Of a stretch of DNA of 64,000 nt, positions 7,608-57,800 are shown in pieces (position 1 is the stretch's first letter; each line of letters begins with the position of its first letter). The stretch is from Nereocystis luetkeana. Its lineage: Eukaryota; Sar; Phaeophyceae; Laminariales; Laminariaceae. Position numbers and translations under genes: made by a program. The notes beneath the pieces were generated by a model. The model was not told the DNA's origin. It did not search any database and saw nothing but the letters and a program-made list of their open reading frames with translations. The stretch spans positions 653,501 to 717,500 of the forward strand of contig JARUPZ010000035.1 in assembly GCA_031213475.1 (NCBI GenBank), given 5' to 3'.

Positions 7608-8117
7608 GTTGGGTTGGCGCCGGTTGACGGCGACGCTGTAGAACACGTCTCTCACTACGTGAGCTAGGCAACCAGGGTACCGCCTTTCTTTTTGTTTTGT
7701 ATTTTGGCGGTCACCTCGGCTGGCGGTCTAGTTAGATCATTCGTGCGAGGTGGAGCACGTTGGCTCTACACAAGGGGAATTATCGTATCAAGCGGTGTGT
7801 GTATGGCAAGGCACCCACGAGGCCGACACATGGTTTACCCATCGCTGTCTCTAGAAGTAGCCACACCAAAAAAATCAAATCATTGCATTCGAGGCTGTCG
7901 ACCGTATCCAAGTCCGCCTCACAGGCGATTCTAAGTATTAATAGGATGCAGCTCGTCCTTCATGCAACTCGCCCAACACCTCACGGTGCTTCGCGCTCGG
8001 TGCAAGCAATGCCTGCCTGGTCGGTGAAAACCCGACGTGCTCCGTTCAGGCGTCGTAAGGATGCGAGGGTCTGTCATACGACTACGGCCATGCATGGCAT
8101 GAGTACCCCCCCCCCCC
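7608..8117 (+). repeat. Family C repeat, near full length
   Basis: Order: GGCGCCGGTTGACGGCGACG, CTCACTACGTGAGCTAGGCA, GGGTACC, poly-T, a GGCAAGGCACCCACGAGG block, a TCCGCCTCACAGGCG block, GGATGCAGCTC, GGTCGGTGAAAACCCGACG, GGATGCGAGGGTC, GCCATGCATGGCATGAGTAC, then a C-run. The intron acceptor for exon 8481 lies downstream. Confidence 0.85.
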
Positions 8118-8480
8118 TCCTCCCTTCCGCGCTGCTCCGCCTCTCTTACCCACACAGTTCACCGATGGGTATCGACCTCCCACTTGAACAGCCCCAACCC
8201 TTCCCCCCACCCATCCCGCCTCATCATACATCTCAATACCTCCACAATCTGCCGATGGTTATTCAACCTCGCAACAACAAATATCCCCCCCCCCACCCTC
8301 CCCACGCCCCTATATTCTCCGTCTCTTTATATATCTCGGCACTCCCTCACTCCGCCAATGGTTGTCGACCTCGCAAGTACAACATCCCCCGCCACCGCCC
8401 CCGCCCCCTCCCCAATCCCGCCTCTTTTTTCCCGTGACACAATCCGCCGATGACTGTCGACCTCGCAACAATAGCAACAG

Positions 8481-54800: not shown

Positions 54801-57800
54801 TATATGTCCTGGTGCTTCGTAGCATACGTATGAGAAAATAAGCCCCCCCCCCCTCCCCTGACACACTGCAGTGACTCGTCGAAACCCTCACGGCGCCGCA
54901 TGCTTGGTGCAAGCAATATCTTCCTGGTCGGTGAAAACCCGACGTGTCTCCGTCCCGGCATTGTAGGGATGCGAGGGCCTACGGTCATACAGCTACGGCC
55001 ATGCATGATGTCGAGTACGCCCGCCTGCATCGTGCGGCATGGTGTCAGAGCATGGCCAGAGTCGTTTCAACAGATAGAAGTGCCTATCCACGAACCGCAA
55101 CGTACGAGCAGGCAGGTCTACGTACGCACGTACCCATATAGCAATGGTTGTTTTTCGTTGTTATCTGTTTGGTCTTGTTTTTTGTTTTGTTTGTTTGACT
55201 TTTTTTTTTTCTTCGTTTTTTTGTCTGCATCGCCGCCTACCTTTTTACTACCTTCCCCTCCCCTCCCCTCCCCTCCCCTCCCCTCCCCCGTGTCTCTCCG
55301 CACCTCCCGGCATGCGTCCAGGTCGTCATCTTACAAGCATTCAACCACAATCCCATGAACTTCGTGAGGGAGAACGTCCAGCCCGAGGTGGCGGACGCTG
55401 TGGCGAGGCTGGACAACAACTTTGGCGACGATCATTTCGGGGTTTGCTCGGTAACTATGAATTTTTATACCTGGTATATTTTATCATTTTTTGCTCTTAT
55501 TTTGCTGCGTGACCTATGCGGGGGAACGGTCGAAGTTGAGGTCTAGAGCCGAGCCCTCTTCCCGTACGGAGGTTTTAGTTTTTTTTTTAGTCGCTGATGC
55601 TCCACTCCCCCCCCCCCCCCCCTCCCCCCCTCCCCCTCCTCCTCCCCCACCCCGCTTTCTCCTTTTCCTCCTCTCCCCCCCCTGCCCTACGACCATGCAT
55701 GACTTGAGTGCACCCTTCTCTCCCCGCCCCCTCTACGGTCATACGATTACGCCACGCCCATGCATGACTTAAGTACCCCCCCCTCCCCCCCCCCCTCCTC
55801 TATAGTTGTACGACTACGGCCATGCATGAGATCGAGTACATATCTCCTACCGAGTACCCCCCCCCCCTCCCCGCCCCCCCCCCCGCTTCCCCCACCCCTT
55901 CCCCTTCTCCCCCAACCCCCACCCCACCCCGCCATCCCCGCCCTCCTCTCCCTTTTTCTCCCCCTTCCCCTGCTGTTCTATCTTCCCACCCCCGCCACTC
56001 GCCATCTCCCCGTCGCGCTCCTCCTCCTCCTCCTCCTCCTCCTTCTCCTCCTGCTCTCTTGCCTTCTAGCTTCGCTTTTTGTTCAAGCCTAAGCCGGAGT
56101 TTAGCGAGCATTACTGTGAGGAGCGGTCGACCGTGTTGGTGAGAGATCAAACTGTAGCTGCATTAGGGTGGGCTGGTGTTGCATGGTGTCCCCTCTCCCC
56201 TCTTGCGGCGTTTATGGCTTGTAGCAAGTGTCTCCTTCATCAATCAGTACCCGGCAGGCGCTATTAATAGTCGCCTGCCTGGCTGATGAATACCTGGTCT
56301 ATCTCGCCGCTTCATTGTAGAAGGCATCCGGCAAGCAAGCAGCCAACGCAAGAAGCAATATTACGGGGGACCATAGTTAATAGGACCAAATATTGTTAGT
56401 AAAAATGATTAAATATATAGGTGTTCATGTATACCATAGGTCCTATTAACTATGGCCCCCCGTCATACCCGTATAGCAGTAGGCGGTCCCTAGGCCCACG
56501 ACCCGCCCCTTGAAGAGAGCAGGACATGGAGATAAAATGACACCACGCTCCTCAAAGAGATCAGACTGGCAAAAAATGACTACGTACCAGGTTCGTCTTG
56601 ATTGTGGGATAATATAAAGGATTTCTGTACGCACGAATTCGATGAAAACGTTTTGTTGTTGTTGTTGTTGTTGGTTTTTCTTTCTTTCACGTGCTGTTCC
56701 CCCCCTGTCTGGGTGTCGAAAACAAACGTAGGTTGTCGATATACATAGATTTTTTTAGTACCCCTGATTGCATCGTCAAATTGGTGTTGGCTGTCGTGTT
56801 CTGAATATATTTTCGTGTTAATGGAAGATATTGTTGCTTTTCCCAATTTATAGATAACAGTAATTTCCAATTTATGGACAGCCTCCGAAACCAATTTTCG
56901 CTGTTTTTTGGTGCGTCAGATGTACCTGATACAGTAATTGGTGGTGCGGACTTTCCTAAGGGGATACATTGAAAGGAGACGCCCCCTGCACCCCCCCCCC
57001 CGTTCCCGCCCCCCCCTCCGTTCCCCTCCCCCGCCCTTCCCCTCCTCCTGCTCCCCCCCCCCCCCCCCCTTCCCCTCCGCTCCCTTTCTCCCTCCATCCC
57101 TCCCTCCCTCCTTCCATTCCTCCCTTCCCCCCCCCCCCCCCTCCCCCTCCCCCTCTCTACCCCTACGTCGCCATGATTTTGATTTTGATTTGCTTCGTTT
57201 GGATTTAATTTGATTTGGTCTGGTTCGGTTTTTGTTTTTGTTTGTTTGTTTGCTTTTCTTGTTTTCTTTTTCGCAGGACGGAAAATTCGCGAGCGTTTCG
57301 TTGCACGTGCGCACCGGGGACAGCCGGGACTACCACCCCGAGTGGTACGAAACGCTTCCCAAGGTGATTTTGGCGATATTCAGCGTTCGAGATTTATACT
57401 TTTTAGGTATTCTCAGAACCAGTACAAGCATGGTTTGCGTTATTGTGGTATACACGAAGCGATTCGCACATTTTTTTTTTCTTCACGATTTCGAAAGTGT
57501 TGCATGTGTGTGAGGGTGTTTTTGTTTTGTGTGAAACAACAACAGCGCTAGCTACTAATAGGGGGGGGCATATTAAGTAGGACCTACGGTACAAACAAAA
57601 ACCTACATATTTCGCTCTTTTTACTAACAATATTTGGTCATGTTTACTATGGTCCCCCGTAATACTACCCAGAGAGGTACGGCGGTGGTAGGTGCCTTGT
57701 GCTTGTACAGTTTCTTACTCTTGTCCGCACAGCACAATGGTTTGTCTCTTTTCCTTCTCTCTCTCTCTCTCTCTCTCTCTCTCTCTCTCTCTCTCTTCTT

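Follow-up and report, generated by a model that had tools for sequence, protein, structure and literature searches.

Repeat copies and putative exons in the window

The window, the whole 64,000-nucleotide stretch of Nereocystis luetkeana DNA analyzed here, contains plus-strand genes split into putative exons and 28 copies of two repeat families, C and D (18 on the plus and 10 on the minus strand), which were located by blastn against a sequence library of both families. A preliminary description of this DNA had claimed that copies on either side of an exon turn the same end, GAGTAC followed by a C-run, toward it, and had offered insertion preference, a role in splicing or introner-like creation and reshaping of introns as readings. 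All nine copies named there were found, each in the orientation described (9/9), with gaps to the acceptor or donor as given below. Orientation was scored at these nine of the 28 copies and relative to putative exons; at the named junctions at least one open frame runs across a plausible exon length, as judged by eye. The wording “just upstream” proved loose for exons 8481 and 53051, although the copies themselves are present and oriented as claimed.

7004..7215, plus: family C copy, 5'-truncated
7605..8106, plus: family C copy, near full length; 374 bp 5' of exon 8481
10503..10901, minus: family C copy, inverted; 41 bp past donor 10461
10927..10979, minus: family C copy, short; same chain as 10503..10901
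11042..11646, minus: family C copy, near full length; same chain as 10503..10901
11854..11927, plus: family D (LINE 3' end) copy
11946..11983, plus: family D copy
14760..15259, minus: family C copy, near full length; 59 bp past donor 14700
15672..16031, plus: family D (LINE 3' end) copy; 152 bp 5' of exon 16184
26226..26302, plus: family C copy, short; 65 bp 5' of exon 26368
27372..27619, plus: family C copy, C-runs both sides; 55 bp 5' of exon 27675
28357..28442, plus: family C copy, short
31838..32335, plus: family C copy, near full length
36567..36868, minus: family C copy, 5'-truncated
36885..36924, minus: family C copy, short; same chain as 36567..36868
38373..38882, plus: family C copy, near full length
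38936..39127, plus: family C copy, within a 245-bp tandem duplication
39199..39249, plus: family C copy, short, C-runs either side
48241..48435, plus: family C copy, 5'-truncated
48721..48771, plus: family C copy, short, C-runs either side; 40 bp 5' of exon 48812
52007..52334, plus: family C copy, 5'-truncated
52350..52584, plus: family C copy; 466 bp 5' of exon 53051
54873..55018, plus: family C copy, 5'-truncated
55799..55857, plus: family C copy, short, C-runs either side; 212 bp 5' of exon 56070
63393..63448, minus: family C copy, short
63477..63589, minus: family D copy; same chain as 63393..63448
63616..63677, minus: family C copy, short; same chain as 63393..63448
63704..63997, minus: family C copy; same chain as 63393..63448

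The C-run adjoining the copy may act as a polypyrimidine tract at exons 27675 and 48812. Directly 5' of exon 53051, the space is filled by a long (CCCT)n-like tract (52776-53050). The translations at 26368, 27675 and ~28734 are TPR-repeat-like, by eye only. The 245-bp tandem duplication (38689-39178) consists of two copies that are 100% identical and takes in part of a family C copy. A separate short family was also seen (11267-11378, 33686-33797, 35335-35446, 56357-56468 and others); by eye, its ends resemble inverted copies, GGGGGACCATAGTTAATAGGACC and its complement, in the manner of DNA-transposon MITEs.

Identity of families D and C

The D copies derive from the 3' end of a LINE of the APE type, and most are 5'-truncated. 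At locus L079, a reverse transcriptase domain (RVT_1, 2.8e-28) is preceded, in a separate open stretch upstream, by an Exo_endo_phos match (6.2e-13, seen in this one copy), and the LINE tail ends in GAGTACGCCCC. A further piece of reverse transcriptase is encoded upstream of the GAGTAC end at locus L006; its RVT_1 match (1.1e-6, 29.0 bits over 80 aa) falls just below the curated cut-off of 29.6, and its best solved relative is an R2 protein (4.5e-10). Genome-wide, there are at least 150 RVT_1 matches, 150 of 889 first-look candidates having been scored. At locus L078 the LINE tail ends in GAGTAC and a C-run, and a C element, starting at its 5' end, comes immediately after it. Family D thus has the reverse transcriptase domain, the APE-like endonuclease and the fixed 3' end with 5' truncation of APE-type non-LTR retrotransposons, and analogy suggests that its LINE may belong to the RTE-X clade. 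Any target-site duplications within a C-run would be hidden.

Family C, at ~510 bp, has only the tail in common with this LINE. In a C variant, the 3'-terminal 95 bases matched the LINE tail with a local score of 49 (best among 1000 shuffles, 25), and the first 420 bases gave no match to the LINE (score 27; maximum of 60 shuffles, 32). Family C is therefore a short retroposon, with no coding part detected, that bears a LINE 3' tail, as SINEs that share their 3' tail with a LINE do. Since it bears this tail, we infer that C uses the enzymes of the LINE. A simple consensus scan allowing one mismatch found no pol III promoter A or B boxes on either strand of C, and within the window there were no Rfam matches at gathering score and no tRNA genes (ARAGORN), so C is filed as SINE-like and not as a SINE. 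When five loci were searched against Rfam with E up to 1, four matches were returned, all below gathering score, and these were taken as chance. An internal T-run was considered as the poly-A tail of an opposite-strand element and dropped, as the sequence past it is also common to the copies.

Genome-wide, the sequence GAGTACCCCC was counted 5501 + 5569 times, whereas its reversed control gave 203 + 196. Three of the first eight places examined (L004, L005 and L008) were unlike C or D, so copy number is only roughly known. Around 1500 in L004 and L008 lies a different repeat, which contains GAGTACCCCC and is unlike either family.

By description, the closest parallel to the C/D pair is found in Ectocarpus, where RTEX-N1_Ec32 accompanies the LINEs RTEX-1_Ec32 and RTEX-2_Ec32 as a short element with a LINE-shared 3' end (PMC12477816). 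This non-autonomous element of ~600 bp is the most abundant single family in that genome, with over 6000 copies; its 3' end is conserved with autonomous RTE-X LINEs, the origin of its 5' part being left open there, and Ectocarpus LINEs are often 5'-truncated and common in introns (PMC12477816). Unlike for C/D, the part of that source available to us reports neither a C-run target nor an exon-facing orientation for RTEX-N1_Ec32 (PMC12477816).

Ends, flanking runs and orientation of the copies

Copy ends were analyzed in a main sample of 161 copies (126 C, 35 D) from 72 non-overlapping stretches totaling 332,732 bp, made up of the window and of loci chosen for an element, for GAGTACCCCC, for kinesin/SNF2 exons or for the LINE. 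The 3' end (GAGTAC) is fixed, with 117 of 161 copies ending within 8 nt of the library 3' end, 30 ending 9-25 nt short of it and 14 earlier. Among the C copies with a 3' end (n = 117), 33 are 5'-complete and 84 are truncated at variable points. Retroposition of the LINE type typically leaves copies of this kind, fixed at the 3' end and variably truncated at the 5' end.

Junctions were read only where they lay at least 45 bp from a stretch edge, so that 10 of the 84 truncated C copies were excluded and 74 remained. Within 40 bp on the upstream side, a run of at least five Cs (C5) was present in 55/74 truncated C copies, 24/33 5'-complete C copies and 17/31 D copies, and G5 was absent from all three groups; among 5000 random 40-mers, 354 had C5 and 331 had G5. 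The 19/74 truncated C copies and 14/31 D copies that have no C5 upstream count against C-run targeting. Across the window and the kinesin/SNF2 loci, whose choice did not depend on elements, C5 lay upstream of 30/37 and downstream of 35/37 C copies, with no G5.

The same picture emerged genome-wide. The exact 5' end of the element occurs 306 + 295 times. On the minus strand, C5 lies at most 4 nt upstream of it in 226 of 295 cases, each site counted once among the 100 rows listed (the plus-strand figure, 782, is left out, as the variable gap lists sites repeatedly); G5 adjoins it at 0 of 601 sites. At one truncation point, 118 copies abut C5, none G5 and none T5. The element has a C at the start of this truncation, so joining through shared Cs favors C there, and the 118 include tandem neighbors, which are non-independent. 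In the main sample, 34/74 truncated copies start with C, compared with 131 Cs in the 513 positions of the library consensus, an excess that fits joining of this kind.

Downstream of the copies, C5 was found in 62/74 truncated C, 31/33 5'-complete C and 28/31 D copies, against 0, 1 and 0 with G5, and this 3'-side run could in part be the element's own tail. The downstream counts for truncated C copies speak for an alternative in which the element itself makes the C-runs, through a C tail, templated or not, or through jumps between C-tailed RNAs, and in which its orientation has been kept since other orientations harm splicing. Likewise, the upstream C-run is accompanied by another copy's tail in 28/73 truncated copies (overlapping loci included). 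However, where no element lies upstream, truncated C copies still have C5 on their 5' side in 26/40 cases, and G5 in none. Moreover, runs of at least 8 nt are mostly found away from the elements: across the window plus the exon loci (overlapping loci included), a detected element is no more than 40 bp away from 38/116 C-runs, 22/79 G-runs, 3/67 A-runs and 8/73 T-runs, so that 78/116 C-runs and 57/79 G-runs lie farther from any. Together with the exon polarity that bare runs carry alone (see below), these observations make the manufacture of runs by the element unlikely.

Orientation is locked over short distances. Neighboring copies at most 150 bp apart have the same orientation in 56 cases and the opposite one in none, compared with 14 same and 11 opposite at 151-500 bp and 16 and 14 beyond 500 bp. 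Most insertions therefore lie in one kind of site and in a fixed orientation, as in target-specific non-LTR retrotransposons. Insertion preference, one of the three options in the preliminary description, is supported in a specific form, with C-runs as the preferred site and the strand of the run setting the orientation.

Exon polarity, introns and relation to known elements

For an independent test outside the window, kinesin and SNF2 exons were collected by a Pfam search (132 + 55 = 187 matches), and 75 of the 187 were analyzed. These were picked without regard to C-runs, the kinesin exons being skewed to the best matches, and their edges are those of the Pfam matches, so true splice sites may lie further out. 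When the nearest element lay within 200 bp, its C-run end faced the exon on 12 of 14 exon sides, belonging to 12 exons (binomial p = 0.013); the two exceptions face the opposite way and lie on the upstream side of C7:4904300 and the downstream side of C21:3786507. The exon-facing arrangement thus recurs away from the window. The kinesin exon matches C12:2427651, on a large contig, and C435:2654, on a small one, have equal scores and are perhaps a second haplotype; pairs of this kind could supply empty sites.

Runs around the same 75 exons are themselves polarized. Within 100 bp of the exons, C6 runs number 15 upstream and 2 downstream, and G6 runs 4 upstream and 22 downstream (p = 3e-6). For runs of at least 6 nt within 200 bp, the upstream/downstream counts are 28/8 for C, 8/27 for G, 13/4 for A and 31/28 for T; the upstream excess of A-runs (13 vs 4) is outside the reach of a C-run model. 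Bare runs were then defined as runs of at least 5 nt within 200 bp of an exon, after masking of the elements and 60 bp around them. These retained the polarity, with upstream/downstream counts of 37/18 for C and 19/49 for G (p = 2e-5), compared with 23/16 for A and 52/43 for T. Counted per exon, 37 were concordant and 13 discordant (p = 0.0009), runs and exons of the same gene being not fully independent. In other eukaryotes, splicing signals include C-rich tracts 5' of acceptors and G-runs 3' of donors. Because bare runs are polarized without any repeat, a splicing role of the repeat is not needed for the pattern, and since they share the exon polarity of the copies, insertion targeted to runs yields the exon-facing arrangement. 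Chance, or the selection of examples in one window, is a very improbable source of this arrangement: the nine examples were drawn from 28 copies, and C-rich tracts may have steered the preliminary description to exons, but the independent Pfam exons and the bare runs both argue against it.

The introns were examined through the gaps between consecutive matched exons (n = 42, median 783 bp), some of which may hide unmatched exons. Introner-like elements are repeats in introns near splice sites, and in this C and D copies resemble them, as copies sit in introns and some lie near exons. In contrast to introners, in which the insertion makes up the entire intron and carries a splice site at either end, C and D have no fixed splice sites at their ends and the introns are only partly element. 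Only 8 of the 42 gaps contain an element and the largest element share is 55%, so none exceeds that share; because the 5' ends are variably truncated, the ends of the element cannot offer a fixed splice site. We therefore regard the creation or reshaping of introns by these repeats as the least probable reading, with next to no likelihood. In the kelp Saccharina, for which RTEX-1 is also mentioned, the average intron measures 1,057 bp (PMC4421812). Overall, the orientation described at the outset is upheld, and of the readings attached to it insertion preference is retained whereas the introner-like origin of introns is not.

In our assessment, the exon-facing orientation very probably results from one-way insertion into C-runs, combined with the polarity of C- and G-runs around exons, with families C and D being a LINE and its passenger. 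This explanation builds on the shared tail, the enzyme domains, the 5' truncation, the flanking C-runs, the orientation lock and the exon polarity of bare runs, all of which are observed. As a mechanism, the LINE endonuclease would nick a G:C run on its G strand, and the resulting G-ended primer would pair with the Cs at the 3' end of the RNA (GAGTAC-C). Reverse transcription would then run toward the 5' end and often halt early, and an early-stopped copy would be joined, by means of shared Cs, to the part of the run lying upstream. In this way, the run's strand would fix how the copy is oriented. As C-runs tend to lie 5' and G-runs 3' of exons in gene sense, the GAGTAC-C(n) end would come to face the exon from both sides. 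A more far-reaching version, in which the LINE and its passenger are specialized on exon-flanking C/G-rich tracts as a safe landing place, with splicing signals serving as the target and setting orientation, and with insertion lengthening or renewing the tracts, is possible but doubtful.

Insertion into simple repeats is common to the C/D elements and to microsatellite-specific non-LTR retrotransposons, namely the (TG)n-specific Togen and some HERO families (PMC4640811). HERO is listed among the clades with a restriction-like endonuclease, the position of Togen relative to HERO/NeSL being called unresolved in that source (PMC4640811), whereas the element described here combines an APE-type endonuclease domain with a C homopolymer target. 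No homopolymer-targeted LINE was recognized among the literature matches listed, which is no proof of absence. Targeting of C-runs by a LINE and a SINE-like partner looks like a new variation on known elements. If true, a homopolymer target would explain many intragenic copies with regular orientation, and would offer a neutral and simple explanation for a pattern resembling intron creation or splicing control. It would also add a new type of target to those known for site-specific LINEs, which include rRNA, snRNA and tRNA genes and microsatellites (PMC4640811).
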